From Micromonospora sp. WMMD882 (lineage in GTDB: Bacteria > Actinomycetota > Actinomycetes > Mycobacteriales > Micromonosporaceae): a DNA stretch of 64,000 bases. A model generated the notes under the pieces. That model saw only the letters and a program-made list of their open reading frames with translations. It was not told where the DNA came from and did not search any database. This document shows positions 4,770 to 59,400 of the stretch, one piece after another; position 1 is the stretch's first letter, and each line of letters begins with the position of its first letter. The translations under genes were made by a program, and so were the position numbers. The stretch covers positions 806,001 through 870,000 of the forward strand of contig NZ_CP114903.1 in assembly GCF_027497255.1 (NCBI RefSeq). Direction: 5' to 3'.

Positions 4770-4829
4770 CGTGGTCTCCTCCTGTCTCGATCAGCTCGAT
4801 CCGTCTCGATCAGCGCGGGGCCGTCCCGG

Positions 4830-11566: not shown

Positions 11567-11638
11567 GAACACTTCTCCCGCCGTCGTTCTGCGACAGTTC
11601 TCGCCGTACGACGGGTGGTCCGCGTCGGAGGTGGGTCG

Positions 11639-14395: not shown

Positions 14396-14513
14396 CGTGG
14401 TCGGTGAACGTCGCCGGGTGACGCAGTCGGGCGGGACAGTCAACGTACGGATTCGTCGTCGGGTCGGGTCGCGGCACAGTCGTCGGCACACCCTCTGCGA
14501 ACGGAGCGCACGA

Positions 14514-41982: not shown

Positions 41983-42448
41983 CGAAGAGCCCCCGACCCT
42001 CCACCGCCTCGCCTTTCCTGAAAAGGTGGCCTCCGGCCCTGAGGAAACCCCCTTATCCCAGCAACGCTGCGGGCCTTTCTCGCTAAGATCCACAGACCCA
42101 CCATCGGTGGCTAACTCCGGTGACGGCAGATTGGGGAGGCCGGCGCGGCAACACGATCTCGGTCAGTGCTGCTGACATCAGCGGGTGCGGTCCTGTTCTG
42201 GGTCATGGTCTTCGCAAAATCATGATCATCAACGGACCGCACCCACCCTACATGGGCCCCCGAATCTCACCGAACCGTGCGGCTCGACAGCCCTTCAACC
42301 GGCCCGGCACCGAGCAACCCGCTCACCCAGTCGTCAAGCAAGGCGCCCATCCACACCAAATCAATCCATGTATTCGGATGCTTTAGGGTTCTCTGGCGGC
42401 AACACTGACGGCAACGCGAACGCCCCGCGATGCCCTTCGACGCACAAC
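41983..42448. other. Gap without a supported gene
   Basis: Between the MerR gene end and the terminator of the Rhs operon. Composition falls from left to right. Near 42090-42240 there is AT-richer DNA without a credible start and ribosome-binding site. No RNA or mobile element is recognised. Confidence 0.4.
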
Positions 42449-42485
42449 GGAGTGGCACCAATGCTCTTGGTATTGGCGCCACTCC
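42449..42485 (-). terminator. Strong hairpin after the Rhs immunity gene
   Basis: GGAGTGGCACCAAT (42449-42462) pairs with ATTGGCGCCACTCC (42472-42485), a 14-bp stem with one wobble and a 9-base loop. It lies 8 bp beyond the immunity gene stop and may serve both strands. Confidence 0.8.
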
Positions 42486-42493
42486 GGGAGGAA

Positions 42494-42745
42494 TTATGCG
42501 CCAGCGCCCGGACGAATAGCCGATTCTCGCCCGAGAAGATAATCGAACTTTAACGGGATAATCGTTAAGCCGAATCGTGCAGCTAGATAGCTCAGGGATG
42601 CGTCAGAAACGTCGTAGAGATCTGCGTCTCCAAGCTCATTCAATCCAAGTATCGTCAGTGCATCGCTATCTGCAAGGCCGCTTAGCCTGTGCCGAGCCCA
42701 AAGCGATCCTGACTTCCGATCGAATTCTTCTAGCACCCACTCCAT
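42494..42745 (-). CDS. Putative immunity protein for the E3-type Rhs toxin tip
   Basis: An 83-residue acidic protein, MEWVLEEFDRKSGSLWARHR onward, with LTILGLNELGDADLYDVSD and a C-terminal FGLTIIPLKFDYLLGRES. Its ATG (42743-42745) overlaps the toxin stop codon (ATGA) and follows GGGAGG, so it is translated with the toxin, as immunity genes commonly are. The length equals that of colicin E3 immunity proteins (about 84), but the sequence is closer to the DUF7683-like small proteins found beside actinomycete toxins. Composition is lower in GC than the Rhs body, as for the toxin tip, so the pair travels as a module. Confidence 0.75.
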   Translation of the reverse strand: MEWVLEEFDRKSGSLWARHRLSGLADSDALTILGLNELGDADLYDVSDASLSYLAARFGLTIIPLKFDYLLGRESAIRPGAGA

Positions 42746-45700
42746 CAGCAACCTCCCAGCTTGCGCCCTGGCACCGGCTGACCCTTTCTGCCGGGGAGTT
42801 GCTCGCCCGTAGCTGGATTGAACTCCCCCATATGCTTGGCGTTCTTTTTGCCATTGGTCCACATCTCAATTGTGCCGTGCGCCGAATCCCACTCGAGAAT
42901 TCGGCCGTCCGACAAGGACCAACGAGCACGATATCCGCCGCCGGCTTTCGGTGATCCACGCCCAACGTATGTCGCATCAGGGAAGCCCGGAAGTGCCTTA
43001 TCCGATGGCGGAGGCGTGTAACCCCCATCATTGTGTACGAGCACCGGCGTGTCGCCGGCGAGTACATAGTACGTGTGGATGTGGGCGATGGTGAGGTTGT
43101 AGGTGGTTGTGGTGGTGTCGTGGGTGGGGCGGGTGCCGTTGATCTGGGCGGTCGTGCCGTCGGGGGTGCGGAGGTGTTGTCCTGGGGTGAGGGTGCCGGC
43201 GGGTTGCCACTGCTGTCGGGTGGCGTTCCAGAGGGGGTGGTCGGCGGTGGTGTCGAGTGGTTGGCCGTCGACGATCAGGGTGAGCAGGGTGTCTTCGTGG
43301 ATCCAGAGGTGGGTGACGGGTCGGGGGCCCTGCTCGCCGGTTTCGGGGTCGGTGGCGAGGACGGTGTCGCCGAGGCGGATGGCGCTGAGGGGTTTGGTGG
43401 TGCCGTCGGCCATGAGCACTTGGGTGTCGCCGCTGAAGCTGCACAGGCCTCCCCAGGGCACGTCGTCGCTGGCCCGCCCGGCGTCGAGTAGGACCGCCCC
43501 GGCGCGGCCGAAGGATCTGACCTTGCCGAGCCGGGGCAACAGGATGTCGATGGAGAGGAACACGCAGCCGGTCGCGCTGCCGTCGGCGCAGTCGATGGCG
43601 TCGGCGGCGCCGGTGAGCTCCAGGACGACGTCGCCAAGGGCCTGCCGGAACTTCTGCTGCTCCTCCTTGTCGATCTGTCGGCAGATGTCGGGTGAGTTGT
43701 AGCAGAAGGCCATCCACTGCGCATTCCGCTGCTCGACGGGGTCGAGGTCGCGGAACTCCCGCTGGTTGTTGGTCATGGCAAGCGCGACCTGGTCGAGGGT
43801 CCGGGCGTCCCTGCCCTCGGTGGTCTTGCCGCCTCCGGTGCCGCCGAGTTGGATGCCGCGGTACTGGTTCAACGAGGTGCCGCTGACCTGCATGCCGCCG
43901 CCGGTGTTCTTGCCGCCGCCCGCGCCGCTTTTCGGGTGCGCGATCTGGCCGCCGCCGTGGGCGTCCTCGAAGAAGGTCAGGCCGGACGGGTCGGAGAAGG
44001 TGGCCGGGCTGTTGTTGCCGTACGCGTAGCCGTTCCACTGTTGTGGATCGCCGAGGTCCTGAAGCGGGTCCACGCTGATGAACCGGCCGAGCGCCGGATC
44101 GTACTCGCGGGCCCCGATGTGGACCAGCCCGGTGTTGTCCCTGGTGCCGCCCAGGAAACCCTTGTCCATGATGGCGGGCCACGCTCCGGTGGGGGTGCCG
44201 CGATCGTTGCCGAACGGCAGGGTGCGCCGCCGGGTGACCGACAGGTCCGTGTTGGCGATGCTGACCTCGGCCGTGCCGTGGTGGTCGTTGACCAGCCACG
44301 TCAGGCCGGTGAGGGAACGCATCGCGACGACCGTGCCGGCGTGCGAGTAGTAGCGGGTGCCCGCTGCGGCGCTCGCGGTGGGTTTGCGTACCTCGGTGCC
44401 GTCCGGCAGGTAGAGGGTGGCGCCCGTGGGGTCACGGCGGATGAGCCGGTTGCCGTCGGCGTCGTATACGTAGCTGGTGGTGCCGGCGGGCTCGGCGAGA
44501 TGGTCGAGCCGGCCCTCGGGGCTCCACGTCAGCGTCTGGTTGCCCGGCCGGGTGGCCGTGTCGCCGGTGCCGGTGTACGTGTAGGCGTCGGTCCTGCTGA
44601 TCGTGCCGGTGGTGACCACCGAGGTCACCGCGTGCGGGCGGGAGCCGGCGGCCCCGCCGGGCGCGGGGTAGGCGTAGGTGCGGAGCGTGCCGGCCAGGTG
44701 GTCGGTCTCGGTCTTGCGGTTACCGGTCACGTCGTACGTGTAGGAGTGCCAGTAGCGGGCCGGGCCGACCAGACCCCCGAGGCTGGGAGTCGTGCAGGCG
44801 CCGGGGCCCGGCGTCCACGCGGCCGTCAGGCGACGCAGGTAGTCGTACTCGAAGCACTGGACGTCGGCGGCCCCACCTGCGGGCGTGTCGGCGATCTGGG
44901 TGAGGTTGCCCCGTTCGTCGTAGCTGTAGCCGAAGTTGACCGCCTCCGGTTTGAGCTCCGGGATGGCGTTGGTGTTGAGCAGCCGGCCGGTGTGCTGGTC
45001 GGTGGTGTGGGTGATCCAGGTGCGCTTGCCGGTCGCCCCCAGGATCCGTTGGCTGAGGTTGCCGAGCTTGTCGTAGACGGTGTTGTTGACGTAGATCTGC
45101 GATCCTGCGGTCAGCATGACCATCGGCGCCCCGATGTCGGTGTAGCTGTAGGTCAGCTTCTCGCTGGCCAGACCACCGGCGGCGGGAAGCGTGCTGGTGG
45201 CGACCGCGCCGTCGGGCCGGTAGGTCGTCGCGTACGGGTACGTGCAGGGCGTGCTGCCGCCGGCCGCGCAGAGCGCGCTGTCGACCGCCGGGAGGGTGAG
45301 CTGGCTGCTCAGGGGACGGCCGGCCACGTCGTACCCGGTGATGTCGGTCCGGTACGCGTTCGTGGAGCCGGCCGGCTCGTACCGGATCGCCGCGCTCAGC
45401 CGGCCCACGCCCTTGACCGACGTGTCGTAGCTCCACTCGGCCCGCTTCGGGCCGGTGACCGAGTCGTTCCGCAGCGTGGTCCGGCGGCCGAGACTGTCGT
45501 ACGTGTACGCGAGGGTTCGGTTGCGGGCGTCGGTGACCGTGGTCAACTGCCCGGCCGCGTCGTAGGTGGAGACGGTGACCCCCCGGTCCGGGTCCTCGTC
45601 CCGGACCCGACGACCGAGCTGGTCGTACGCGTACCGCCAGGTGTTGCCGGCCGGGTCGGTGAGGCTGGCCAGTTCGCCGAACGCGGCGTAACCGTAGGTG

Positions 45701-48700
45701 GTCTTGTCGAAGTGCGCAGGATTGTCGCTGCCCACGTCGGCCCGGTTCTTGTACTGCCGCAGCTCGACGGCGCGGCCCCGGGCATCGCTGATGGTCGTGG
45801 TGGCGGTGCCGCCCCGCGGCGGGGTGACACTGACCCGTTCACCGTCGTAGCTGGTGGTGGTGCGCCACTTCTCGTTGGTGGCCTGGTTCACGCCGACCTT
45901 GAAGATGGCGTCGGTGACGCGGGCGGCCCCGTCGTAGACGTTCAGGGTGTGCGCGGGCACCGCCGGGGTGCCGGTCTGGCCCACCAACTCCGTGCCCGGC
46001 GGGTCGTTGGTCGTGTCGTAGTAGGGCTGGGAGGTCCACTGCACCAGGCCACGTGAGTCGTGGACGGTGTCGGTGAGCACCCGGCCGCCGCCGGTCGCCT
46101 GCGTCTGGGTCTGGCGCGGCCGCAGCAGCCCGTCGTAGAGGGTGATCGACGTCCGGCGGGCGTAGGTGACGCTCGGCGTCATCGTCCAGGTGGTGACCGC
46201 GGTCGGCGCGGTGTTGCGGACCAGGTAGCTGTGCTCGACGTCCGGGGCGTTGGGGTAGGTCGCCTTGGCGCGCCCCGGTCGCCACGCCTTCAGTAGCCGA
46301 CCGAGTCCGTCGTAGGTGACCTCGGAGATCCCGCCGTTGTTGTTGTCGGTGGTCGTCAACGGGAGGTGCCAGGCGGTCGCGTAGGTGGTGGTGGCGCTGT
46401 ACCCAAGCGCGTTGGTGATCGTCTTGGCGGTCACCGGTCCGGTGGTGGCCGGGGTGTAGGCGGTGGTCGTCTTGCGGTCGAGCGCGTCGTAGGCCTCCTT
46501 GTTGCGGCCGTTGTCGTCGTAGACCGCCCGCGCGGTGGTGACCCAGGTGGGGGTGGTGCCCGACCACGAGGCGATCTCCTCGGTACGGACCGCGTTCCCC
46601 TTGACCGGGAGGTAGGTGTTCCAGTCGCTGCCCGGCAGGTCGTACGTGATCCGGGTGCTGGAGATCATGTCGGCGGGCAGACTGGGCGTCGCGGCGCAGT
46701 TGACGGCGACCGTCTCGACTTTCTTGACCCGACCCAGCAGGTGATTGGTCGGGTTACGGGCATACCAGGTGCGGGTGCACCTGTCGTCGCCCGCGGTCGA
46801 CTCGTCGCCGAGGTCGTCGACCTGGGTGGGCAGGTTGTCACTGTTGAACGTGGTGACGGTCTTGACCCAGCGGACGCCCCCGGCGGCGAGTCGGCTGCGC
46901 GACCGGGTGGTACCCACGTTGGTCATCCACGCCTTCAGCGGGCCCGAGGTGGCGGTGGGGCCCTGCCGGACAGGGGTGTTGATGGTGCCGGACACCCAGT
47001 CCCCGCCGTTGCCGAGCAGGGTCGTCTCCTCGCGGAGCATCCCGGCGTACGCCTCGTGGTCGGCGATCGCCACGTTCTGCGAGTCGGTGACGGTCACGCT
47101 GCGGGTGCCGGTCGGCTGTTTGTCGCCGTCCATGCCCCGGAAGTAGCGGTACTCGCTGGCGGACTGCACGCCCGTCTCCAGACCCTTGCGGACCCGGACG
47201 TGCCCGTAGCCGCGGAACTGGCTCCAGGTGCGCTCCTTCTCCTCGACCAGCTCCGAGTCCTCGTAGTGCCAGGCCGGGCTGTCGAGGTAGTCGTAGTTGC
47301 TCTGCTCGTGCGCGAACCCGCCGGCGTTGTCGTACACGTCGATGCGGGTGACCCGGTACTTGTGGAACCAGTCCCGTTCCGGTTCCCCGCCGTCGGGCGC
47401 CCAGTAGCGGGGGAAGCACGCCTTCGTGTTGGTGTGCGGTTGCGGGAGAGCGTTGCGGGCGCACTCCGGGGCCGAGTAGGTGACCGCGACCTGGGCGCCG
47501 GTCTCGGTGGTCACCGTGTTCACGCGGTACCGGAACAGGTCCGACCGGCCGTCGGCGATGGCGTCGACCCGGTTGGGGCGCGCCTCACTGCCAGGATCGA
47601 AGACGATCTCCGGATCGGAGACCTCCGGGCCGCCCGCGCTGGTCACCTTGCCGGTACGGGTCACTCCGGCCAGCCACATCGGCTCGCCGGTGTTGTCGCC
47701 GGTCTGCAGGTAGGTGTGCCGCAGGGTCCACCAGGTCACGTCCTGATAGGAGGTGCCGGCGCCGGAGTAGACCTGGGAACGGACCTGAGCCAGCCGCTTG
47801 GCGGTCCAGAAGGTCGGTGACAGTTGGCTGGTGCAGGGGCTGGCCCTGCAGTACTGGTCCCAGGGGGTGTCCGGCCACGACGACGCGACCGCGTCAGACC
47901 CGGACCAGCAGTTGCTCTCACAGCGGTCGGCGGGGTCGAAGATCAGCCTGGCGGCGGCCTGCGTGGTGGACGTGGCGTCGCTGCGGTTGCCGTACTCGAC
48001 GCGGCTCAACCAGCCGCCGCGGTGGTAGGTGGTGCGCTTGGTCGGGTCGCCTTCCCGACCGTAGGCGCCCGCCTCCCGGCTGTAGAAGTAGGTGAGCGTG
48101 TTGCCGTGCAGATCCACGACGTGGTCGAGGTTCCAACGCCAGGCCTGCGTGGTGCGGGAGGCGGCGAAGTTCCCGGCGGTGTAGCCGTGCTCGTCGGGGT
48201 GGTTGCCGTACACGGGCACGGTCCACACCGAGTTCGTCGCGACGGTCCCGGAGGCCCCGCCGGGGCCCGAGTTGCGGCCGAAGAAGTACTGGACGCCGTC
48301 GGGCGTGGTGACCTTCCAGTACTCGCCGTCGTCGTCCCCGTTGCCGAATCCCGTGTTGGTCGACAGTTCGATCCTGGAGCCGTCGTCGCTGACGCCCTTC
48401 CAGGTGTTGCCGGCAGACTTGACCAGCTCGGTGGCGCGGCCGTTGAGCGAGATGGTGGCGTTGCCGTCCGGCTTCAACCAGCACAGGTCACCGCTGTTGA
48501 CCGCGGTGTTGTTGGCGGGGCTGCCTCGCATCGGCTCCTTGTCGCCGTTGCACGCGGTGTACTGCCGCTCGATGTAGCCGGGCCAGAAGTCCCAGCCGTC
48601 GCCGATCCACGAGCCCTGGGTGTTCGTGCCCGCGGTGCGTCCGTCGACCGCCCCGGAGGAGTACGTCAACGCGACGGACGGCTCCGGCCCGCCGACCCCG

Positions 48701-49521
48701 GGGGGTGCGTCGAACGGGTACGACCAGGTGAAGTCGCCGGTCTGCGGCCCGACCTGCCAGGTGGAGGCCGGGGACAGGCTGGTGGCGGCGAAGTCACCCG
48801 AGTCGCCGGACGGCCCGCTGGTGACGGCGAGAGTCACCGCCGTGCCGTCGGCGGGCAACTCGACCGGCGCGGACACCACTGCGGCACGTCGGTCGTTCGT
48901 GCTGGGCAGCGGCTGGCCGTCCGGCAGGCGGACCAGCCGGAGCCGGTTCGCCCAGTCGGCCCCGTAGGCTCGGGCGAACCCGGAATAATCCACCTGCACC
49001 GTCACGGTGTCCCGCCGGCGCACGCCGTCGGCCCGGCTCACCGTGAGCGCCACCCCGGGCGCGCCCCGGTCCCGCGCGGACCGTTGGTCCAGGACCTCGA
49101 CGGTCACCTGACGTACGGGAACCGCGTCATCGGACCCGGGCCGGGCCCCGGCGGGCGGCGTCACCCGTACCGGGAGCTTCCCGGTCCTGGTTCCGTTGCT
49201 CCGGCTGGCGTCGGTCGCCACGTCGGTCAGGTCGACCGTCGCCCGGCCCGGAGCAGGCCAGGTGACCTTCGGGTTCCCGCGACGCTGCCGGTCTGCTGCC
49301 GTCCAGGCGGGCCTGGTCTTGTGGACCAGTGGGGTGGCCGCCACCCCGGCCACCTCGGGGGCCTTCGGCGGGGACCAGGCGGGGGCCGCGTCGACGGCCG
49401 GCGCCTGGCCGGCGAGGGTGACCGCCATGACGACGGCGAGCGACGCGGCGACCCGGCGGCCGGCCCTACCGACCGTCCGGAAAGTGGCCCGGTACGGACC
49501 TGAGCGGCGTGCGACGGACAT
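42745..49521 (-). CDS. Rhs/YD-repeat toxin delivery protein with Hint domain and colicin E3-type RNase tip
   Basis: A 2258-residue secreted polymorphic toxin. The signal region is MSVARRSGPYRATFRTVGRA plus a hydrophobic core to AVDAAP. A long YD-repeat shell follows. The conserved core end is YDPALGRFISVDPLQDLGDP plus NGYAYGNNSPATFSDPSG. A Hint (intein-like) autoprotease starts at CSFSGDTQVL (about 2027), with TTADHPLW and a terminal VLVHN. The 94-residue tip after VHN contains EWDSAHGTIEMW, the Asp-x-x-His-x-x-x-Glu triad of colicin E3 16S rRNA nucleases, and GEFNPATGEQL. The ATG at 49521 follows GGGGAGACGCT. It is downstream of the LamG gene (49 bp) and overlaps its immunity gene. The last 1313 bp before the tip are duplicated in inverse orientation at 53091. 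Confidence 0.92.
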   Translation of the reverse strand: MSVARRSGPYRATFRTVGRAGRRVAASLAVVMAVTLAGQAPAVDAAPAWSPPKAPEVAGVAATPLVHKTRPAWTAADRQRRGNPKVTWPAPGRATVDLTDVATDASRSNGTRTGKLPVRVTPPAGARPGSDDAVPVRQVTVEVLDQRSARDRGAPGVALTVSRADGVRRRDTVTVQVDYSGFARAYGADWANRLRLVRLPDGQPLPSTNDRRAAVVSAPVELPADGTAVTLAVTSGPSGDSGDFAATSLSPASTWQVGPQTGDFTWSYPFDAPPGVGGPEPSVALTYSSGAVDGRTAGTNTQGSWIGDGWDFWPGYIERQYTACNGDKEPMRGSPANNTAVNSGDLCWLKPDGNATISLNGRATELVKSAGNTWKGVSDDGSRIELSTNTGFGNGDDDGEYWKVTTPDGVQYFFGRNSGPGGASGTVATNSVWTVPVYGNHPDEHGYTAGNFAASRTTQAWRWNLDHVVDLHGNTLTYFYSREAGAYGREGDPTKRTTYHRGGWLSRVEYGNRSDATSTTQAAARLIFDPADRCESNCWSGSDAVASSWPDTPWDQYCRASPCTSQLSPTFWTAKRLAQVRSQVYSGAGTSYQDVTWWTLRHTYLQTGDNTGEPMWLAGVTRTGKVTSAGGPEVSDPEIVFDPGSEARPNRVDAIADGRSDLFRYRVNTVTTETGAQVAVTYSAPECARNALPQPHTNTKACFPRYWAPDGGEPERDWFHKYRVTRIDVYDNAGGFAHEQSNYDYLDSPAWHYEDSELVEEKERTWSQFRGYGHVRVRKGLETGVQSASEYRYFRGMDGDKQPTGTRSVTVTDSQNVAIADHEAYAGMLREETTLLGNGGDWVSGTINTPVRQGPTATSGPLKAWMTNVGTTRSRSRLAAGGVRWVKTVTTFNSDNLPTQVDDLGDESTAGDDRCTRTWYARNPTNHLLGRVKKVETVAVNCAATPSLPADMISSTRITYDLPGSDWNTYLPVKGNAVRTEEIASWSGTTPTWVTTARAVYDDNGRNKEAYDALDRKTTTAYTPATTGPVTAKTITNALGYSATTTYATAWHLPLTTTDNNNGGISEVTYDGLGRLLKAWRPGRAKATYPNAPDVEHSYLVRNTAPTAVTTWTMTPSVTYARRTSITLYDGLLRPRQTQTQATGGGRVLTDTVHDSRGLVQWTSQPYYDTTNDPPGTELVGQTGTPAVPAHTLNVYDGAARVTDAIFKVGVNQATNEKWRTTTSYDGERVSVTPPRGGTATTTISDARGRAVELRQYKNRADVGSDNPAHFDKTTYGYAAFGELASLTDPAGNTWRYAYDQLGRRVRDEDPDRGVTVSTYDAAGQLTTVTDARNRTLAYTYDSLGRRTTLRNDSVTGPKRAEWSYDTSVKGVGRLSAAIRYEPAGSTNAYRTDITGYDVAGRPLSSQLTLPAVDSALCAAGGSTPCTYPYATTYRPDGAVATSTLPAAGGLASEKLTYSYTDIGAPMVMLTAGSQIYVNNTVYDKLGNLSQRILGATGKRTWITHTTDQHTGRLLNTNAIPELKPEAVNFGYSYDERGNLTQIADTPAGGAADVQCFEYDYLRRLTAAWTPGPGACTTPSLGGLVGPARYWHSYTYDVTGNRKTETDHLAGTLRTYAYPAPGGAAGSRPHAVTSVVTTGTISRTDAYTYTGTGDTATRPGNQTLTWSPEGRLDHLAEPAGTTSYVYDADGNRLIRRDPTGATLYLPDGTEVRKPTASAAAGTRYYSHAGTVVAMRSLTGLTWLVNDHHGTAEVSIANTDLSVTRRRTLPFGNDRGTPTGAWPAIMDKGFLGGTRDNTGLVHIGAREYDPALGRFISVDPLQDLGDPQQWNGYAYGNNSPATFSDPSGLTFFEDAHGGGQIAHPKSGAGGGKNTGGGMQVSGTSLNQYRGIQLGGTGGGKTTEGRDARTLDQVALAMTNNQREFRDLDPVEQRNAQWMAFCYNSPDICRQIDKEEQQKFRQALGDVVLELTGAADAIDCADGSATGCVFLSIDILLPRLGKVRSFGRAGAVLLDAGRASDDVPWGGLCSFSGDTQVLMADGTTKPLSAIRLGDTVLATDPETGEQGPRPVTHLWIHEDTLLTLIVDGQPLDTTADHPLWNATRQQWQPAGTLTPGQHLRTPDGTTAQINGTRPTHDTTTTTYNLTIAHIHTYYVLAGDTPVLVHNDGGYTPPPSDKALPGFPDATYVGRGSPKAGGGYRARWSLSDGRILEWDSAHGTIEMWTNGKKNAKHMGEFNPATGEQLPGRKGQPVPGRKLGGC
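43031..44343 (-). repeat. Inverted repeat, copy A (Rhs core end plus Hint)
   Basis: 1313 bp coding for the Rhs residues from HAGTVVAMRSLTGLTW to the Hint C-terminal VLVHN. It is the reverse complement of 53091-54403. By eye I find only two differences (54381 and 54389), and both fall within the last 25 bp before the toxin tip. Identity stops inside the final Asn codon, exactly at the predicted Hint/toxin junction. Confidence 0.93.
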
Positions 49522-49570
49522 AGCGTCTCCCCGGGCGACAACGAATCGGTCTGGAAGGGCGGGAAAGGAC

Positions 49571-52500
49571 TCAGGCGAAGGCATGGTCGATCACCTCACC
49601 GGGACCCCAGACGCCCTGGCTGGCGTAGACGTGGTCGAGGTCGCCGACCCATCGTTCGGCGGCCGCCCCGGCGTCGAGGGCCCGGGCCAGCGCGAGTGGC
49701 CCGGTGGCCGACCAGGGTGTGGTGTGCGCGGCCTCGGCGTAAGACCCGCCGAGGTCCGGCGTGCCGTTGACGTACAGGCGGATCGTGCTGGTCGGTCGGT
49801 CGTAGACGCCGACGAGGCTGACCCAGTCACCGTCGACCACGTAGTCGGCGGTGCAGGCGGCCGTCTGGTTGGCGGCGCCGCTGTCGGTCTGAGCCAGGGT
49901 GAAACACCACGCCGGATCGGCCGCGCCGTCACCGTCGACGTCGACGTCGGTACGGAGGCCCAGCCGGAACAACGAGGTGGTGGTGCCGTCCTGGGAGACA
50001 GCGGCGTGTGGGCTGGCCAGGTCGGTGAGCCTGACCCAGGCCGCGACCGTGAAACCCTCGGGAGCGTTGGTGTCGAGCACGGGGGACGAGGTCGTGAGTT
50101 GGCCGCTGCCGTCGGTGGTGACCGCGCCGCCCACCCGGCCGTCCGGCTGCCAGGTCACGCCGCTCCCGCTGAGAGCGGCCGGCCGGGTGTTCCCCGGCAC
50201 GGAGGAAGCCGCTGTCCCGGTGGCGTCGTCCAGCGTCCAGTGCCAACTGTCGGTGCTCGGATTGACCAGGAACTGGTAGACCCGGGGATCGGAGGTGGCG
50301 CCAGCGGCGGTACGGGACTGCACCGCCAGGACGTTCAGCCCGTCCCGGGCCGGCGTGATCGTCTCGGCGGTGGTCGTCCCGGTCACCTCCCGCACGGACA
50401 GGTCGTCCCAGAACACGCTCTTGCCGGTGCCCGGCGCGAAGCCGTTGTAGAGGCGCACGAAAGCCTCGGTCGCGGTCACCGGCACGGTCAGCACGACCGA
50501 GAGCCGCTGCCACGTGTCGGTCGCGGTGGGCCGGGATGACAGGACGTGGGTGTAGGCGCCGGCGTTGTGGTACGTGGGAACGATGGCGAGACCACGCCAG
50601 TCCGTCGGGTTGAGCCCGGTCGCCCCCGGGACGTAGACCCAGCCGGTGACCCAGTACCGCCTACCGGCCTGCATGCCGAGGTGGAACCCGCCGCTCCACT
50701 CCCCGCCGACGGTCGCATACGCGAACGCAGCCCCCGCCGCGGTCCCGGACGCGGCCGGGGTGACCTGAAGCGAATCCTGACTCTGGTGGCCGCGGGCGGT
50801 GGAACGGGAGATCGTCGCGTACTGGCCGGCGGTGAAGCCGGTGAGCCCGCTGGAAACCTGCTGCTGGTTGGTGGTCAGCAACTGGGTCTGGGGAGTGCCG
50901 GCGGGCACGGTCACCAGCGGGTCGCCGTTGAGCTGGTAGACGTACTCCGCCACCTCCGTGGCACCGCCGGGCCCGTAGGTGAACGAGCCGGGCTGACCGG
51001 GACCGCCGTTCCAACCCCCGGTGCTCTTCTCGGGGTAGGCGCTGCTCGAAACAGCCGGCAGGGACGGGTCCTGCGTGTTCACAGTGAAGGTGAACCAGGC
51101 CGAGTAGTCGCCGCACAGGTAGGCGTCACATGCCTTCACCCGCCAGTGGTAGGTGCCGTCCGCCAGGGCGGCGCCGGTGAGCGGAACGACCCGCCACGGC
51201 CGGGCGGTGCCCGACGACACACCGGTCACGGCGGTCCCGGACTTCGCCATCAGGGTGCCCTTGGTGCTGTTGTAGACCTGGTACTCGGCGCGCAGGGTGC
51301 CGGTGTCCGGATCGGACACGGTGGCGGCGAGCTGGGGAGTGCCGGAACGGACCACCGCCGGGGACGTGCAGGCCGAATAGCACGAGTCGATCTTCAGGCT
51401 GGTGGGGCTGTTCGGGGTGCGGTTGTACTTGAGCGTCACGTACGGCGTGTGTGTCGCCGCCTCGGACGAGTTGAACTTCTTCCAACCGTTGTGGTTGGAC
51501 TCGCTGGTCGCCCGCAACCCGATGTTGGCCCACTGCTGTTCAGCGGAGTCGAAGGCGGCCTGGAAACTCTTCTTGACCGATACCGAGACCCAGCCGTCGG
51601 CGCAGTTGGGGCCGTAGCCCTTGGTGCCGGTGGAGGTGCCGTCCTGTTCGAGCCAGGCCGGCTGGTTGCCCCAGCGGGCGGAGGAGTTGGCCCAACTGAC
51701 CCGCCACGACTCCCACGACGCCGCCGTGCACGACCAGGAGTAGAAGTTCCACAGGAACAGCTCGGCGGAGATGACCGTGGCGCCGTCCAGACCACCGAGG
51801 CGTTGGAAGTTCAGCAGCGACCGGGCCGTGCAGCCGGAGGAACAGCCCGCGCCGCCGTCGTCGCTGTAGCCCAGCCGCAGCTCGGTGTCCCCCGACTTGT
51901 CGGTGGTGGCGATGGTGTTCTGGACATAGGCGTCGAACCCTGGCGCGAGATTCACCGACGGATCGATGGTCACCGGGTACGTGAGTTGACTGTCCTCGTA
52001 GAAGCCCGGATCAGGGGTCATCACGAGTTCCTGGCCGCCGTCCTCACCGATCGCGGTCACCACCTCGACCTCGGCTCGGTGCGCCGGATCGCCCGACGGC
52101 AGCGACCGGGCGTCCCACATCTCGCCCTGCGACACGGTTGCGGTTCGGGTCGGCGCGTTGGCAGCGCGGTTGCGATCACCGGACGGGCCGGTCGACCACG
52201 GCAGGCTGATGGTCTGCATGGTGGCCGCTGCGGTGGCGTCCTTGACAGTGAACGAGTACTGAAAGCCGGTCCGTCTGGCCTCGACCACCAGGTCGACGCC
52301 CGGCTTCACCTCGGCATAAGTAGCGGTCACCCCGTCGAGCTGCGGCTCGGGCAGCGCCCCCGTCCAACCCAACTCGACCCGCTGCTCGCCGCTGCCGGCC
52401 ACGGCCAGCACGTCCGTCGCGGCGTCCCGCGCGCCGGACAGCCACAGCCCGTTGGCGTCGACGGCCGGTGCCACGTTCCCGTCCGGCAGCCGACGAAGTG

Positions 52501-52867
52501 TCAGGTCGACGTCGACCCACTGCCCGGTGCCGACGCGGGCGCGTACGGGCGCCGCGTGCAGCTCGGCGCTGAAGGTGCCGTCCGGGTACGCCCAGGCCCG
52601 GCTGGTCTCCGTCGTCGCCCCGGTGACCAGGATCGGCTTACGGGTACGGTAGGCCAGCTCAGCGGCTGCTGCCTCGTCGGCCGCTGCGGAAGGCGTTGCG
52701 GCGGACGCTGCGGCTTGTGGTGGCAGGACCGCAGCGTGGGCGGGTGCCCCGAGCAGAGGCGATGTCAATCCGATGACGAGACCGGCCGCCGCAGTGAGGC
52801 CGACAGCTGAGAACCCATTGCCCGAAGTGCAGCGTCGTCGAAAGAGCCTTGCCCATGATCGCACCAT
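49571..52867 (-). CDS. Secreted LamG-domain, DNRLRE-type protein, first gene of the Rhs operon
   Basis: A 1098-residue exported protein. The signal is MVRSWARLFRRRC followed by a hydrophobic stretch to APAHAAVLPP. The N-terminal half has a DNRLRE-like region (SVNLAPGFDAYVQNT, TELRLGYSDDGGAGCSSG, YSWSCTAASWESWRVSWANS), fibronectin/Ig-like and carbohydrate-binding-like modules lie in the middle, and a C-terminal LamG jellyroll starts about 890 (SWHWTLDDATGTAASS ... GFTVAAWVRLTD ... WVSLVGVYDRPTSTIRLYVN). Such proteins are regularly encoded before Rhs toxins in actinomycetes and probably help surface display or adhesion. The ATG at 52867 follows GGGGGAC. It lies wholly within the predicted invertible segment. 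Confidence 0.87.
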   Translation of the reverse strand: MVRSWARLFRRRCTSGNGFSAVGLTAAAGLVIGLTSPLLGAPAHAAVLPPQAAASAATPSAAADEAAAAELAYRTRKPILVTGATTETSRAWAYPDGTFSAELHAAPVRARVGTGQWVDVDLTLRRLPDGNVAPAVDANGLWLSGARDAATDVLAVAGSGEQRVELGWTGALPEPQLDGVTATYAEVKPGVDLVVEARRTGFQYSFTVKDATAAATMQTISLPWSTGPSGDRNRAANAPTRTATVSQGEMWDARSLPSGDPAHRAEVEVVTAIGEDGGQELVMTPDPGFYEDSQLTYPVTIDPSVNLAPGFDAYVQNTIATTDKSGDTELRLGYSDDGGAGCSSGCTARSLLNFQRLGGLDGATVISAELFLWNFYSWSCTAASWESWRVSWANSSARWGNQPAWLEQDGTSTGTKGYGPNCADGWVSVSVKKSFQAAFDSAEQQWANIGLRATSESNHNGWKKFNSSEAATHTPYVTLKYNRTPNSPTSLKIDSCYSACTSPAVVRSGTPQLAATVSDPDTGTLRAEYQVYNSTKGTLMAKSGTAVTGVSSGTARPWRVVPLTGAALADGTYHWRVKACDAYLCGDYSAWFTFTVNTQDPSLPAVSSSAYPEKSTGGWNGGPGQPGSFTYGPGGATEVAEYVYQLNGDPLVTVPAGTPQTQLLTTNQQQVSSGLTGFTAGQYATISRSTARGHQSQDSLQVTPAASGTAAGAAFAYATVGGEWSGGFHLGMQAGRRYWVTGWVYVPGATGLNPTDWRGLAIVPTYHNAGAYTHVLSSRPTATDTWQRLSVVLTVPVTATEAFVRLYNGFAPGTGKSVFWDDLSVREVTGTTTAETITPARDGLNVLAVQSRTAAGATSDPRVYQFLVNPSTDSWHWTLDDATGTAASSVPGNTRPAALSGSGVTWQPDGRVGGAVTTDGSGQLTTSSPVLDTNAPEGFTVAAWVRLTDLASPHAAVSQDGTTTSLFRLGLRTDVDVDGDGAADPAWCFTLAQTDSGAANQTAACTADYVVDGDWVSLVGVYDRPTSTIRLYVNGTPDLGGSYAEAAHTTPWSATGPLALARALDAGAAAERWVGDLDHVYASQGVWGPGEVIDHAFA

Positions 52868-53090
52868 GCTGAGTCCCCCGTTTGTCGACCATCCGTCAAG
52901 GCCGCCGGTAAGACTAGGGATCGCATGCCCTCGATGTAAGCAACGGTCACAACTCGACACCACAAACCGGACCAGTCGTGTAAATCGACAAGCCGCCATG
53001 ACTTTGGGTTACCGCGTGATCGCTTGACGCCTCCTGTGACGCGTCGTCGGCCGTGAGTATCCGCGCCGTCTGCTTCGGCAGGGTCGACTC
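52868..53090 (-). promoter_or_regulatory. Upstream region of the LamG-Rhs operon
   Basis: 223 bp between the LamG start and inverted repeat copy B. The operon promoter must be here, because nothing else lies upstream before the repeat. The position means that the promoter would move together with the operon on inversion. I cannot pick a -35/-10 pair with confidence. Confidence 0.4.
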
Positions 53091-54403
53091 CACGCCGGCA
53101 CGGTCGTCGCGATGCGTTCCCTCACCGGCCTGACGTGGCTGGTCAACGACCACCACGGCACGGCCGAGGTCAGCATCGCCAACACGGACCTGTCGGTCAC
53201 CCGGCGGCGCACCCTGCCGTTCGGCAACGATCGCGGCACCCCCACCGGAGCGTGGCCCGCCATCATGGACAAGGGTTTCCTGGGCGGCACCAGGGACAAC
53301 ACCGGGCTGGTCCACATCGGGGCCCGCGAGTACGATCCGGCGCTCGGCCGGTTCATCAGCGTGGACCCGCTTCAGGACCTCGGCGATCCACAACAGTGGA
53401 ACGGCTACGCGTACGGCAACAACAGCCCGGCCACCTTCTCCGACCCGTCCGGCCTGACCTTCTTCGAGGACGCCCACGGCGGCGGCCAGATCGCGCACCC
53501 GAAAAGCGGCGCGGGCGGCGGCAAGAACACCGGCGGCGGCATGCAGGTCAGCGGCACCTCGTTGAACCAGTACCGCGGCATCCAACTCGGCGGCACCGGA
53601 GGCGGCAAGACCACCGAGGGCAGGGACGCCCGGACCCTCGACCAGGTCGCGCTTGCCATGACCAACAACCAGCGGGAGTTCCGCGACCTCGACCCCGTCG
53701 AGCAGCGGAATGCGCAGTGGATGGCCTTCTGCTACAACTCACCCGACATCTGCCGACAGATCGACAAGGAGGAGCAGCAGAAGTTCCGGCAGGCCCTTGG
53801 CGACGTCGTCCTGGAGCTCACCGGCGCCGCCGACGCCATCGACTGCGCCGACGGCAGCGCGACCGGCTGCGTGTTCCTCTCCATCGACATCCTGTTGCCC
53901 CGGCTCGGCAAGGTCAGATCCTTCGGCCGCGCCGGGGCGGTCCTACTCGACGCCGGGCGGGCCAGCGACGACGTGCCCTGGGGAGGCCTGTGCAGCTTCA
54001 GCGGCGACACCCAAGTGCTCATGGCCGACGGCACCACCAAACCCCTCAGCGCCATCCGCCTCGGCGACACCGTCCTCGCCACCGACCCCGAAACCGGCGA
54101 GCAGGGCCCCCGACCCGTCACCCACCTCTGGATCCACGAAGACACCCTGCTCACCCTGATCGTCGACGGCCAACCACTCGACACCACCGCCGACCACCCC
54201 CTCTGGAACGCCACCCGACAGCAGTGGCAACCCGCCGGCACCCTCACCCCAGGACAACACCTCCGCACCCCCGACGGCACGACCGCCCAGATCAACGGCA
54301 CCCGCCCCACCCACGACACCACCACAACCACCTACAACCTCACCATCGCCCACATCCACACGTACTATGTACTCGCCGGCAACACGCCCGTGCTCGTACA
54401 CAA
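53091..54403 (+). repeat. Inverted repeat, copy B (Rhs core end plus Hint)
   Basis: The reverse-complement duplicate of 43031-44343, of the same length (1313 bp). The left boundary is sharp: the base before CACGCCGGCACGG differs between copies. The right boundary is inside the Asn codon that ends the Hint domain. The two differences are A for G at 54381 (Asp to Asn) and C for G at 54389 (silent). Confidence 0.93.
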
Positions 54404-54719
54404 CACCGGTGGCTCGTGTGCTGTTGGACTTCCGAACGATCCGTATGACCCAGCGGCAGTTGCCGAACGTAGCGCAGCCAACCGTGCGCTATACGCTCCG
54501 AGCGCTTCCGACAGGGCGGCCGATTTGGGATATGGCACTCGCATCCCAGCACAGAAGGCTCCCTTCAATTCCCACGGGCAGGAAGTCTTCTCTAACGGGA
54601 AAACCTACATCACGCGAGACGTTGACGGGCACAATGTAACCGACGGGTGGAAGATGTTTAACCGTAGGGGGCAACGGATTGGGACCTATGACAGCGACTT
54701 GAACTATCTCAAGGAGTAG
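53112..54719 (+). CDS. Orphan Rhs C-terminal cassette with Ntox21-like toxin tip
   Basis: The frame is open from 53040 with no natural start; the first ATG (53112, 535 residues) is internal to the Rhs core. There is no signal peptide, shell or ribosome-binding site, so as it stands this is a silent cassette. Residues 1-430 equal the Rhs core end plus Hint of the main gene (last residue N, VLVHN). The tip that follows (about 105 residues) is different: RAADLGYGTRIPAQKAPFNS, HGQEVFSNGKTYITRDVDGH, GWKMFNRRGQRIGTYDSDLN. This pattern resembles the Ntox21-type toxin tips seen in CdiA/Rhs proteins (recalled, not searched). Tip DNA is lower in GC than the core. An immunity gene follows after 1 bp. 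Confidence 0.85.
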   Translation: MRSLTGLTWLVNDHHGTAEVSIANTDLSVTRRRTLPFGNDRGTPTGAWPAIMDKGFLGGTRDNTGLVHIGAREYDPALGRFISVDPLQDLGDPQQWNGYAYGNNSPATFSDPSGLTFFEDAHGGGQIAHPKSGAGGGKNTGGGMQVSGTSLNQYRGIQLGGTGGGKTTEGRDARTLDQVALAMTNNQREFRDLDPVEQRNAQWMAFCYNSPDICRQIDKEEQQKFRQALGDVVLELTGAADAIDCADGSATGCVFLSIDILLPRLGKVRSFGRAGAVLLDAGRASDDVPWGGLCSFSGDTQVLMADGTTKPLSAIRLGDTVLATDPETGEQGPRPVTHLWIHEDTLLTLIVDGQPLDTTADHPLWNATRQQWQPAGTLTPGQHLRTPDGTTAQINGTRPTHDTTTTTYNLTIAHIHTYYVLAGNTPVLVHNTGGSCAVGLPNDPYDPAAVAERSAANRALYAPSASDRAADLGYGTRIPAQKAPFNSHGQEVFSNGKTYITRDVDGHNVTDGWKMFNRRGQRIGTYDSDLNYLKE

Positions 54720-54720
54720 C

Positions 54721-55182
54721 GTGTTCGCAATCGAAGTGGTCCAGAATGGGTTCGTCCTCGGCGCGGATGAGAGCGCTGACGGTGTGACCGGGCGAATCAC
54801 AATCGATGACTTCGCGGAGACATTCGAGGTGCCGCTAGGCTTCTGGACGGTCTCTGACTACCAAAATAGCTGGTGTCGGGCGTTTGCGGTGCTGGAAGAA
54901 GGATCATCTGCGGCATCATGCTTGATGGCGTCTATGACTGATCCGGAAACCACCAACTTTCTGTTTTGCTGGCCGCTGTATCGCGATGGAGAAACTGTCC
55001 ACATTCAGAACTCTATAATTTTTCTTGACGAGGTTCGATCCGAGTTCGATCCAGGCCAGCCGTGGCTTTCGATTTCCTCGCGTTGCGCTGTCGACGAGGA
55101 TGGAAACGTCGTTTCTGAATGGGTAACCTCCATGGATTCGATGAGAGAGTTTTTCGGAAGCCGTTGTGATGACGTGCAGTGA
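54721..55182 (+). CDS. Putative immunity protein for the second toxin tip
   Basis: A 153-residue acidic protein, GTG start 1 bp after the orphan tip's stop. The sequence (MFAIEVVQNGFVLGADESAD, GFWTVSDYQNSWCRAFAVLE, CWPLYRDGETVHIQNSIIFL) fits small cytosolic immunity proteins of the CdiI type; WxVSDYxxSW and the aromatic FLFCWPLYRDG are what I would look for in that family. No signal or membrane segment is seen. Composition is close to that of the tip rather than the Rhs core, so tip and immunity were probably acquired together. Confidence 0.75.
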   Translation: MFAIEVVQNGFVLGADESADGVTGRITIDDFAETFEVPLGFWTVSDYQNSWCRAFAVLEEGSSAASCLMASMTDPETTNFLFCWPLYRDGETVHIQNSIIFLDEVRSEFDPGQPWLSISSRCAVDEDGNVVSEWVTSMDSMREFFGSRCDDVQ

Positions 55183-55215: not shown

Positions 55216-55596
55216 ATGTCCGAGCGCTTGCGGCCCTCGGATTACCGGGGCCTCTACTTCACGGAGCGTACCCGATTTGACATAACGCCAGGTCAAAGCT
55301 ATCGCGTCTACGAGATGGCGCTGTTCAACTCGGGGCTCACTGTGCTAGTAGTGGACGACAAGCGGCAACCCAATTGGTATCCGATGGAGTTGTTCGAAGT
55401 GGAAGAGGGGGTCCTGCCTGCCAACTGGACTTTCGCCTTACGTAATGGGGGTCAAGCTGGAACTCAAGCCGTTTGGGGTCATCCTCGACTCGTAAACGAC
55501 TCAGCCTTGGATGAGTCGCTTGCAGATCAGGATTCTGATGCACAGGTGATTTTCTGGCAGGATGTCGCCGTCCCTGAGGGCGTGGAGACCGAATAG
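55216..55596 (+). CDS. Small cytosolic protein, possible additional immunity gene
   Basis: A 126-residue acidic protein without signal peptide, 33 bp after the immunity gene. The middle VYEMALFNSGLTVLVVDDKR followed by NWYPMELFEVEEG and NWTFALRNGG resembles small proteins that I associate with toxin-immunity neighbourhoods, but I cannot name the family. It may be a leftover immunity gene from an earlier tip (Rhs loci often collect these) or a second subunit. Low GC like its neighbours. Confidence 0.65.
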   Translation: MSERLRPSDYRGLYFTERTRFDITPGQSYRVYEMALFNSGLTVLVVDDKRQPNWYPMELFEVEEGVLPANWTFALRNGGQAGTQAVWGHPRLVNDSALDESLADQDSDAQVIFWQDVAVPEGVETE

Positions 55597-56436
55597 AGCA
55601 GCCGAAAGTTTGCTGGGAGAGCCAGGTGGGGAGCCTGGCGGTCAGCGGTCTGGCTGTTCGGGACAATCGGAAACGGTAGCGCTGAGTAGCGAAGGGCTGT
55701 CGATGACTGCTGTATTGGTGCCACTCGACCATGGGGCTGCCGCACTCATAGGTGACATCTGAGCTGACGAGAAGGTGACCGGCCAAGATCCCACTACTTC
55801 CGGGTTGTAGTGGTGCCCGAGCGGGGTGAAGGCACTACTCCCCCCAGGTAAGACGATCTTGCCCGGCGGTGGGGAGGGCAGGGAGGGCGGCGTGGAATGG
55901 GTGGGTGCCCCAAATGTGGGGCAGCTCCAAAGGATCCGCGTACTGGTACCCGCAGAGGGCCGTTGCGTTCTCGCTCGGTGGGCCGGTGAGCTGGGATGAT
56001 GCTGGGCGTACCCGCACCACCGGCGGCAATACTAACCGCGAGACCGCCTACCTGGTCACATCCCTGCCCGCCGCCGACGCCCAACCGGCTGACCTGCAAA
56101 AATGGGCAAGAGCGGAGATCGCCATCGGGCCCGCACCGGCACCGGACCTGCCGTCATGGCCACCCTGCGTAACACCGCAATTGGTTGGCACCGCATCCAC
56201 GGCGAACCCAACATCGCCCGCGCCAACCGACGGCCGACCGTCGCTCACACGACCTCATAACCGCCGTGCCAGCAGCTACGTCAGAACGCAATAGCCCGGG
56301 GTGCCCGCACCCGCGCGCCGTACCTGGGCGTCGCGCCGCACGCGCGTGCCGCGCCGGCGAGAGAACTGGCCCACGGACGACTGTCCTCGGGCGGGTCACT
56401 GTGGAGGGTGGCGTAGCATGCCTCGGTGATTCGCGT
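55597..56436. other. Intergenic region with hairpins, no supported gene
   Basis: 840 bp between the Rhs island and the helicase operon. It contains a perfect stem CCACTAC/GTAGTGG (55791-55813, 9-base loop) that may be the terminator of the preceding genes, a copy of the palindromic repeat (listed separately), and a rising GC content toward the right. Short open frames in it lack ribosome-binding sites. The promoter of the helicase gene presumably lies after 56270. Confidence 0.45.
55905..55927. repeat. Palindromic repeat element, third full-stem copy
   Basis: GTGCCCCAAATGTGGGGCAG followed by CTC has the same GCCCCA/TGGGGC stem as the copies at 10073 and 10192, but the loop is AATG and the tail diverges after CAGCTC. 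It lies in an intergenic region, as the other copies do. Confidence 0.65.
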
Positions 56437-59400
56437 ATGAGGCCGACCATCGCGGCCGACACCCTGCGCCGGACCCTCACCCAGTACCTCACCACCACGT
56501 TCGGGCTCAGCGAGGCCGACGTACGGCAGGGCCTGGAAGGGTTTCTCTCCCACCCGGAGCAGGGCATCTTCCGCGGGCCGTACCTGCGGATCCGGACCCC
56601 CTTCCGGCCGGCGGCCGGTGACTGGCGGGCGGGGCTGGAGTGGGCGCCGGCCGGCTTCGCGCCCTACTCGCACCAGGCGAGGGCGTTCGCCCGACTGTCC
56701 ACCCGGGACGGGGTTGCCCGACCGACCCTGATTACCACCGGCACCGGATCCGGCAAGACCGAGTCGTTCCTGATCCCGGTGCTGGACCACTGCCGGCGAC
56801 GGAAGCGGCGGGGCGCGGGCGGCGTCAAGGCGATCCTGCTGTACCCGATGAACGCCCTCGCCACCGACCAGACCCAGCGGATCAACGAGCTGCTCACCGA
56901 TCCGGCGCTGGCCGGGGTGACCGCCGGCCTCTACATCGGCGACGTGGCGGCCATCGAGTACCCGCACGTGCTGACCCGACGGTCCGAGATGCGGCGCACC
57001 CCGCCGGACATCCTGGTCACCAACTACAAGATGCTGGACCTGCTGCTCCAGCGCGCCGACGACCTGCCGCTGTGGCGGGACGCCGAGCCGGCGTACGTGG
57101 TGCTGGACGAGTTCCACACCTACGACGGCGCGCAGGGCACCGACGTGGCGATGCTGCTGCGGCGGCTCGCCGCCGCGCTCGGCCTGGCCGAGCCGGACCG
57201 GCCGTTGGGGACGATCTGCCCGGTCGCCACCTCGGCCACCCTCGGCGAGGGCGGTGACCGGGACGGCCGGACCGCCATCCGGGAGGTCGCCGAACAGGTC
57301 TTCGGGGTGCCGTTCGACGTCGACTCGCTGGTGGGGGAGGACCGCTACGCGCCCGCCGAGTTCATCGTCCGGCAGGACTTCAGCCTGCCGCTGCCCAGCC
57401 CGGAGCAGCTCGCCGCCCTCGACGACCGCGACCCCGACGCGCTGATGGCCGACGTCGCCGCGCTGGTCGTCGGGGAACGCTGCCTCGACGACCCGGTGCG
57501 CCTCGGCGAGCTGCTGCGCCGGCATCCGCTGACCAAGGCGGTGCTCGACTCGCTCCAGTCCCGGCCGGGCACCCTCGACGAGATCATCGACGTGCTGCCC
57601 CGCAAGAACGCCACCGGCTGGGGCAGCGCCATGAAGACCCGACCCGAGGTCACCGCGACCGCCCTGGCCCGCTTCGTCGGCCTGCTGGCCATGGCACAGC
57701 ACCCGGACGCGCCGGGCCGCCCGCTGCTGAACATCGAAACCCACCTGTGGGTACGGGCCGTCTCCCGGCTGCTGCGCGGCACGTCCCACCAGCCCACCTT
57801 CGGCTGGTACGGGGAGCCGCCCCGAGAGCCCGACCCGTACGCGCCGGACGCCGACCGGGTGGTCGCCGACAACCGCCACCCGCGCCTGCCCGCCGTGTAC
57901 TGCCGGCACTGTGGCCGCTCCGGCTGGATGGCGCTGTCCCCGGAGAGGGACCCGCAGGAGCTGGAGACCGACCCGGACAAGATCTACCGGGCCAGCGTCG
58001 GCCGGGACAAACGTCGGGTCCGGGCGCTGCTCGCCGCCACCGCGGACGAGATCCGGCAGCAGCCGACCGGCCTGCTGGTGCTGGAGCACGGCCGGCGGGC
58101 GCGCCCGTTCGACCCGGGCCGCGACGGCCGGCCCGACGACGACGCGATCGTCGTGCGCGGGGACCTGACCGGCGTCGACGCGGCCGAGAAGGACCGCTGC
58201 CCGGCCTGCCAACTGGACCACGGTATCCGCTTCCTCGGGGCCGGGTTGGCCACCCTCGCCTCGGTGGCGGTCACCCAGCTCTTCACCGGCGGCGAGCTGA
58301 CCGGGGACGAGAAGAAGACCCTGCTGTTCAACGACTCGGTGCAGGACGCCGCGCACCGCGCCGGGTTCGTCGCCAACAGGTCGTACGCGTTCTCGCTGCG
58401 TACCCTGCTCGCCGACCAGCTCGCCCCGGGCGTGCCGGTGGGGCTCGACGAGCTGGTCGCGACGATGGTGGCCAGGGCCGCCCAGCCGGAGGTCCTCTCC
58501 ACGGTGGTCCCGCCGGACCTGCACGACCAGCCGGGCGTGGACGGTCTGCTCGCCGGCGAGCACACCGGCAGCCGGGAGACCTGGTCGCTGATCAGCGAGC
58601 GGCTCGTCTTCGCCACCGTGCTGGAGACCGGGCTGCGCTCCCGGCAGGGTCGCACGCTGGAGCTGACCCGCGGCGTCGCCGTCGAAGTGGCCGTCGACGA
58701 CCCGCAACGGGCCGTGGCGATCTGCCGGGACGTGCGCCGCACCGGCCCCGGGCAGCTCGACGGCACACCCCCGGACGACGCCCGCTACCTGGCGTTCCTG
58801 CGGGGCCTGTTGGAGCGGCTGCGGGCGCGGGGCGCGGTCTACCACGAGTGGCTGACGCCGTACCTGCGGCGCGGCGGCACCCGGTGGCAGGTGTGGGGTG
58901 GCCGTCCGGCCGGCCTGCCGGCCTTCCCGAAGGGCGTGTCCGCGCCGGCGTTCCTGCTGGCCAACCCGAAAGCCCGGTCCGAGTTCGACGTGCTCACCGC
59001 CCGCGGCAACTGGTACCAGGACTGGACGCAGCGCTGCCTCGGCATGGATCTCGCCGCGACCGCCGGCTACCTGGGCCAGCTCCTGCCGGCGCTGGCCGCC
59101 GAGGGCGTCGTCGCCGTCGGCGACACCGAGGACGGCAACCGGGTGTACGGGCTGATGCCCGGCCACCTGCGGGTGACCCGGCTCGACGACGCCGCCGCCC
59201 GGCTGGCCGGGGTGGGCTGCGACACCTGCCACTGGCAGCAGACCGAGCACCCCGACCGGGTCGCCGACTGGGACGGGCACCCGTGCCGGCAGTACCGCTG
59301 CCGGGGCCGGCTGCGTCCCGCCCCCGACGACACCGCCCCCGACGACTACTACCGGCGGCTCTACCTGGGCGGCCGGGTCTTCCGGGTGGTCACCGGTGAG

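Follow-up and report, generated by a model that had tools for sequence, protein, structure and literature searches.

Can a toxin gene exchange its toxic tip, and change it back, without losing an immunity gene on the way? The question is raised by an Rhs locus in a 64,000-nucleotide stretch of the Micromonospora sp. WMMD882 genome (NZ_CP114903.1, positions 806,001 to 870,000; hereafter the window), where two near-perfect inverted repeats, arms A and B, run into two different toxin tips, A and B. An earlier reading of the sequence alone (the original prediction) had proposed a DNA-inversion switch. We consider reversible tip switching by homologous recombination between the arms to be the best explanation of the locus and lean towards it, given the anatomy of the locus and the inverted Rhs gene pairs, or twins, found on Streptomyces plasmids.

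Near-identical inverted arms enclose an Rhs operon

A repeat finder identified a single inverted pair between positions 40000 and 58000 of the window, two copies of 1313 nt lying 8747 nt apart (Table 1). Compared base by base, the copies are identical at 1311 of 1313 positions, share a common reading frame and contain no insertions or deletions. Both mismatches fall in the 23 bp next to the outer, tip-side edge; the remaining 1290 bp are identical, and similarity falls to background right outside either edge. A near-perfect 1.3-kb pair of this kind is far beyond chance. The genome is one contig of 6,366,961 bp in which the arm sequence occurs only twice; the next-best match, at 5,129,146, has 68% identity over 366 query bases. 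Random placement would bring both mismatches so near the tip edge with a probability of 2.9e-4 (a post hoc figure), and their confinement there is expected if recombination renews the arm interior but not its last bases. Arm A spans the Rhs core to the end of the HINT domain, and the arm boundary is thus also the boundary of the toxin module.

The giant full-length Rhs gene has the architecture of a polymorphic toxin with a pretoxin-HINT region, combining YD/RHS repeats, Rhs_assc_core and PT-HINT with a variable tip, and is predicted to encode a secreted antibacterial toxin; signal-like starts were recognized by eye. It overlaps the partner gene by 14 bp, forming a minus-strand operon. For the partner gene we preferred the ATG at 52867, over a start at 52999, with GGGGGA ahead and, by eye, a signal-peptide-like start, and this choice leaves a leader of 223 bp inside the segment predicted to invert. 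The original prediction correctly described 1313-bp inverted copies with two differences, in a common Rhs frame, flanking the promoter region, the partner gene and the Rhs body, but its designation of the partner as a LamG gene was not borne out, since the protein matches CBM_4_9 (Pfam) and DNRLRE (NCBIfam) and no LamG model. An Rfam scan returned no match.

Two unrelated tips with a predicted common target

Tip A belongs to the colicin E3 family, as judged by the Pfam match of the whole Rhs protein (PF09000, E 2.6e-16) and the match of the tip to colicin E3 (1e44, E 4.7e-10). Its motif EWDS-x-HG-xx-E, which contains the catalytic D, H and E of colicin E3, aligns with 1e44. The adjoining immunity A gene is a candidate assigned by position and overlap: its ATG is preceded by GGGAGG and overlaps the tip A stop codon as TGATG, and its DUF7683 match is below the cut-off. 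It showed no convincing match to any solved immunity protein structure, and six of eight candidate relatives reached E <= 1e-5.

Tip B and immunity B match the two chains of the Enterobacter cloacae CdiA toxin–immunity complex (4NTQ chain A, E 4.6e-30; chain B, E 1.1e-25). The immunity gene begins with a GTG 1 nt past the tip B stop, with AAGGAG ahead. Tip B retains the pattern D-x-D-x-H-(6)-K, identical in the alignment with the E. cloacae toxin, and by spacing this pairs with the active site D203, D205, H207 and K214 given for Ntox21/CdiA-CT ECL in the relevant part of PMC9086364. The frame that carries tip B is an orphan Rhs tip module; it has the conserved core in common with the main gene, lacks the Rhs body and an export signal, and has in-frame stops upstream and no evident ribosome-binding site. 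A further frame on the plus strand after immunity B (55216-55596) has no Pfam or PADLOC match and could be another immunity gene.

BLASTP found no meaningful similarity between tips A and B. The E. cloacae CdiA toxin cuts 16S rRNA between A1493 and G1494, like colicin E3 (sections of PMC9990079 and PMC9086364), and both tips of the window are predicted to be 16S rRNA nucleases. The 'unrelated tip' of the original prediction needs amending, since the tips are unrelated in sequence but come from families with characterized members that cleave one and the same 16S rRNA bond. The original prediction was right about the immunity gene of the copy B tip and about the colicin E3-like tip of copy A, where the immunity gene remains a candidate. 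The 1-kb windows that contain the tips and immunity genes have 58-61% GC, compared with 67-74% in the body.

Table 1 Features of the Rhs locus (positions in the window)
Feature	Positions	Strand	Basis
Possible operon end: hairpin directly 3' of immunity A, 15-nt arms, 93% complementary	42448..42486		
Immunity A candidate, 83 aa; weak DUF7683 match	42494..42745	-	Position, overlap; below Pfam cut-off
Tip A past the arm: PF09000 Cytotoxic (colicin E3 family)	42745..43030	-	Pfam, structure-sequence match 1e44
Rhs gene, full length, 2279 aa: YD/RHS repeats, Rhs_assc_core, PT-HINT, colicin E3-type tip	42745..49584	-	Profile matches
Arm A: Rhs core end and pretoxin-HINT region, within the full-length Rhs gene	43031..44343	-	Repeat search, profile matches
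Two arm A mismatches, 43045 and 43053 (partners 54389 and 54381)	43045..43053		Base-by-base comparison
Segment predicted to invert, 8747 bp: Rhs body, partner gene, leader	44344..53090		Coordinates; inversion inferred
Partner gene, 1142-aa frame, CBM_4_9 and DNRLRE; likely start 52867	49571..52999	-	Pfam, NCBIfam
Leader, presumed promoter region, 223 bp, between arm B and partner gene	52868..53090	-	Start-site reading
Arm B: inverted copy of arm A, 1311/1313 identical, frame shared	53091..54403	+	Repeat comparison
Orphan frame, 535 aa: core end, PT-HINT, tip B	53112..54719	+	Frame list, profile matches
Tip B past the arm: PF15526 Ntox21, homologue of E. cloacae CdiA toxin domain (4NTQ chain A)	54404..54719	+	
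Immunity B: CdiI_N, homologue of 4NTQ chain B	54721..55182	+	Pfam, sequence match

A proposed switch by inversion

As in hsdS-like inversion switches, the inverted repeats of the window join alternative coding ends in a single frame. A crossover within the arms would invert the 8.7-kb segment and attach the same Rhs body in frame to tip B. The leader and the operon would travel together, keeping the presumed promoter region with the gene, and neither immunity gene would be lost, as both lie outside the segment. From the coordinates, the present Rhs product of 2279 aa would lengthen to about 2289 aa on flipping (2279 + 30/3), leaving an orphan of about 525 aa with tip A. The layout therefore supports an inversion that would be frame-preserving, reversible in principle and loss-free.

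We propose that general recombination would produce such inversions at a low rate. A Pfam scan of 46 window frames, a set that includes overlapping alternatives, detected no site-specific recombinase, which makes general homologous recombination the likelier route. The scan of these frames revealed one mobile-element gene only, a DDE transposase on the minus strand (30608-31777), 11 kb from arm A. Export would be limited to whichever tip is fused to the body, while the immunity gene beside the silent tip would be expressed enough to protect the cell from siblings in the other state. If the predicted activities hold, the switch would mainly alter the immunity required of a neighbour and not the target damaged, because characterized members of the two tip families act on a common 16S rRNA bond and the immunity families differ.

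Rhs pairs at other loci

We compared 168 loci, including some overlapping stretches and four stretches of the same genome outside the window, three of which have an Rhs core. A core or HINT match was present in 165 of the 168, as well as in the window. More than one Rhs core was found in eight loci, in each case on one strand (8/8), and cores on both strands only in the window. The usual layout of orphan tips, noted for Enterobacteriaceae in the original prediction, is direct orientation downstream of the main gene, as in Salmonella. The orphan of the window departs from this usual layout, being inverted and upstream of the operon. Two of the loci hold direct core copies beside a full-length gene, 4337-5663 and 11625-12951 in L180 (1327 bp, 100% identical) and 12547-13674 and 15570-16697 in L150 (1128 bp, 99.5%). 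The size of the module in the window is thus ordinary and its orientation is what differs. L180 and L150 are good loci for comparing direct with inverted switching. Another locus, L097, contains three direct Rhs cores that are 91-94% identical (10001-15450).

Opposite-strand cores were then counted at a spacing of up to 25 kb. Within the genus (41 genomes, 137 core matches, all listed) the pair in the window was the only one, and there were five same-strand pairs, two of them inside a single frame. The class (59 genomes, 113 matches, all listed) gave three opposite-strand pairs, in the window, G168 and G134, and six same-strand pairs. For the family (36 genomes, 234 matches), the window's pair was again the only one by eye among the matches listed, which also include a full-length gene pair 27 kb apart in G113. 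By eye, the matches listed for 46 genomes of the genus of G168 contain one more opposite-strand pair, in G224. The pair in G168 does share an inverted repeat. No inverted repeat was found for the pair in G134, which was rejected as an inverted twin, or for the opposite-strand neighbours in G113, G224 and G151 (27-kb pair). Matches near both ends of one contig of G343 were left unused, and a direct repeat at L185 was not counted, because this locus showed no second core.

Inverted Rhs twins on Streptomyces plasmids

G168 is Streptomyces sp. NBC_00299, with the pair on plasmid NZ_CP108040.1. Six further plasmids carry such twins, from S. europaeiscabiei NBC_00497, WAC00288, S. anulatus NBC_01543, NBC_00690, S. 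hygroscopicus 5008 and NBC_01217 (records NZ_CP107864.1, NZ_CP027023.1, NZ_CP109388.1, NZ_CP109010.1, CP003276.1 and NZ_CP108539.1). Each of the seven has two full-length opposed Rhs genes with arms of 6.06-6.25 kb that are 99.89-100% identical and with different 3' ends. The count leaves out L223, a copy of L220 (TL01 copies 5008), and L222 (NBC_01116), which is incomplete at the record end.

The twin bodies are 100.0% identical within the plasmid in 7/7 cases (first 5780 nt of the gene, 6100 in L200) and 72.8-84.7% identical between plasmids (84 comparisons). Seven equally fresh duplications are thus unlikely, and continuing exchange between the inverted copies is likely. Two of the seven twins differ between their arms. 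All seven differences in L220 are confined to the last 22 bp before the tip edge; L200 has a single difference, 16 bp from that edge.

The NBC_01116 locus (L222, NZ_CP108645.1) resembles that of NBC_01543 (L218) with 99.8% identity over 88% of the 16.1-kb query. The two share a near-identical locus and not a plasmid, their plasmids being 110 and 320 kb. The 234-bp spacer between the arms of L222 matches that of L218 as its reverse complement at 233/234 positions and in the forward direction at 137/261, whereas on the tip a side the flank is oriented alike in both (1901/1921). Such opposite spacers are what an inversion between the arms would leave, subject to the assembly caveat discussed below. 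A chromosomal candidate, L224 (1-12524, at the start of contig 1 of G245), was dropped because its spacer is near-palindromic (246/272) and its orientation unreadable; it is probably a collapsed repeat.

We take the Streptomyces twins for analogues rather than orthologues of the window locus. The seven counted pairs have in common with it inverted near-perfect Rhs copies, different tips and differences located at the tip edge. In contrast to the window, both copies are full length, the arms are 6 kb long, and the one pair scanned gave no HINT match.

Search for the flipped form

Proteins related to the locus were sought in a set of 5.8 billion sequences clustered at 90% identity, taking the best 120 of 544 matches in a first search and the best 120 of 1940 in a second. 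The sole close match listed in the first was the window's own orphan (P0001, two member sequences, one contig). The closest genomic homologue by E-value, among 81 genomes, has 46% identity over residues 2-439, and the best segment among 79 named loci 51%. The flanking MerR gene was matched at E <= 1e-40 in 24 of 61 genomes of the genus, that of the window included.

Weighing the explanations

Several observations weigh against a switch. No flipped copy appears among the protein matches listed, where the highest score of any other protein goes with 58% identity across 85% of the part compared; the matches listed in the second search omit the window's own full-length protein too, so that a flipped form could escape and its absence is a weak argument. 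All eight multi-core loci are direct, and inversion is thus not needed for such modules to exist. The leader has no site with the sigma-70 promoter consensus, compared with 0.9 in shuffles, and the way in which the silent-side immunity gene would be expressed is a weak point of the proposal. The Streptomyces twins have a different layout, with two full genes; five are divergent with the tips outside, as in the window, and two of seven are convergent with the tips inside. As for the opposite spacers, the L222 record stops at the outer edge of arm b, where a choice made by the assembler could mimic inversion, and its arms show two single-base gaps (offsets 1189 and 5950) in short homopolymer runs, which, if not sequencing errors, are exceptions to the tip-edge rule.

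The main rival is a static orphan, produced by a single recent inverted duplication or acquisition, in which the silent tip B and its immunity gene merely guard against neighbours and no regular inversion takes place. Orphan modules of tip and immunity gene are common (in the part of PMC9086364 that treats them). The near-identity of the arms fits one recent inverted duplication equally well, relatives hold second cores of like size in direct orientation (L180 and L150), the second orientation was not seen among the protein matches listed, and the higher AT content of the tips and immunity genes, relative to the bodies, is what acquired modules should show. On the other side, both arm differences cluster at the tip edge, inverted twins elsewhere are homogenized, and perfect 1.3-kb arms are expected to recombine in a recombination-proficient cell. 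We regard this explanation as unlikely, although it is the strongest competitor. A lower probability still is given to homogenization without switching, where gene conversion keeps the arms identical and inverting crossovers are rare or counter-selected. Conversion alone would explain both the identical interiors and the tip-edge differences, but it arises from the same intermediates as crossover, and the L222 spacer is reversed relative to L218.

Two further alternatives appear very improbable. An assembler could have created the inverted copy or its orientation, since short reads are defeated by 1.3-kb repeats, and L224, which begins at an arm edge and has a near-palindromic spacer, resembles a collapsed repeat of this kind. 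However, unique sequence borders each arm of the window on both sides and is not the same for the two arms, two bases distinguish the arms, and comparable inverted twins are present in plasmid records of seven strains that, by their names, come from different collections. We attach just as little weight to a dedicated recombinase that inverts the segment by acting on short sites within the arms. Many invertible loci do rely on a dedicated site-specific recombinase, and the mechanism of pneumococcal hsdS inversion is still left unresolved in the pertinent text of PMC6620402. Against this route, the scanned frames of the window contain the lone DDE transposase and no recombinase, and no inverted repeat of at least 14 nt was found at 52700-53200, around the inner edge of arm B.

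Returning to switching by homologous recombination, the inversion switch of the original prediction is supported by the layout, namely the head-on arms, the frame, the promoter region and the immunity positions, and by analogy with Streptomyces; the flip itself is what these features would allow.

Implications and neighbouring genes

We suggest, with opinion about evenly balanced, that a class of reversible Rhs 'flip' loci exists in actinomycetes, where recombination would keep inverted toxin bodies identical while the tip, and the immunity required of neighbours, change and no immunity gene is lost. The window would be the asymmetric form, with one full gene and one orphan, toggling two same-bond ribosomal nucleases with unrelated immunity proteins, and the Streptomyces plasmid twins the symmetric form. 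Tip switching between direct copies would cost the old immunity gene and expose the switched cell to its sisters. With the head-on layout this cost would disappear and the change could be undone, so that what is otherwise a one-way evolutionary event might become phase variation of an antibacterial weapon. The membership of both tips in families that attack a single bond points to immunity mismatch, and not the choice of target, as the trait under selection. A ready system for comparison is offered by the Streptomyces twins, whose inverted toxin genes are identical within but not between plasmids.

Two large helicase genes lie near the Rhs locus on the plus strand of the window. That at 56185-62868 resembles DruE (PADLOC, E 3e-92) and that at 20267-23506 resembles DrmD (PADLOC, E 6e-82). 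Both are possible defence genes.

Comparison with known systems

The open-licence literature, covered through titles and abstract openings and with most subscription journals outside it, yielded no inverted or reversible tip switch of an Rhs or other polymorphic toxin. Within that literature the claim that the head-on arrangement is undescribed stands, but the arrangement is not unique, since inverted pairs are present in deposited Streptomyces plasmids.

The closest Rhs precedent is Salmonella Typhimurium, for which the relevant sections of PMC3967940 give evidence of recombination between rhs-main and rhs-orphan that fuses the body to the orphan tip. As in the window, a full-length Rhs gene and an orphan tip with its immunity gene share a near-identical stretch, there of 522 bp and 95% identity. 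The exchange in Salmonella would delete the main immunity gene, and the authors propose a prior duplication (same sections of PMC3967940). The Salmonella orphan lies downstream of the main gene, whereas that of the window is inverted and upstream of the operon, where inversion would be loss-free.

A full-length toxin gene accompanied by silent toxin ends and their immunity genes, which recombination is believed to bring into use, is also described for the orphan cdiA-CT/cdiI modules of contact-dependent growth inhibition (CDI) and for mafB-CT of Neisseria (parts of PMC9086364 and PMC4287609). According to the same parts, these cassettes are placed downstream of the main toxin gene or, for Burkholderia, in the interval between cdiI and cdiB, and the words "inversion" and "inverted" are absent from the main text of the Neisseria mafB paper (PMC4287609).

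The tips themselves have well-known counterparts, colicin E3 for tip A and E. cloacae CdiA-CT/CdiI (4NTQ) for tip B and immunity B. The window joins them to an Rhs/HINT protein, and their activities there are predicted. In its mechanics the proposed switch would resemble the SpnIII hsdS genes of Streptococcus pneumoniae, where inverted repeats in gene copies allow inversion to bring in a different coding end. Those genes encode DNA specificity subunits and not a toxin and its immunity, and their inversion is experimentally demonstrated (as set out in part of PMC6620402).

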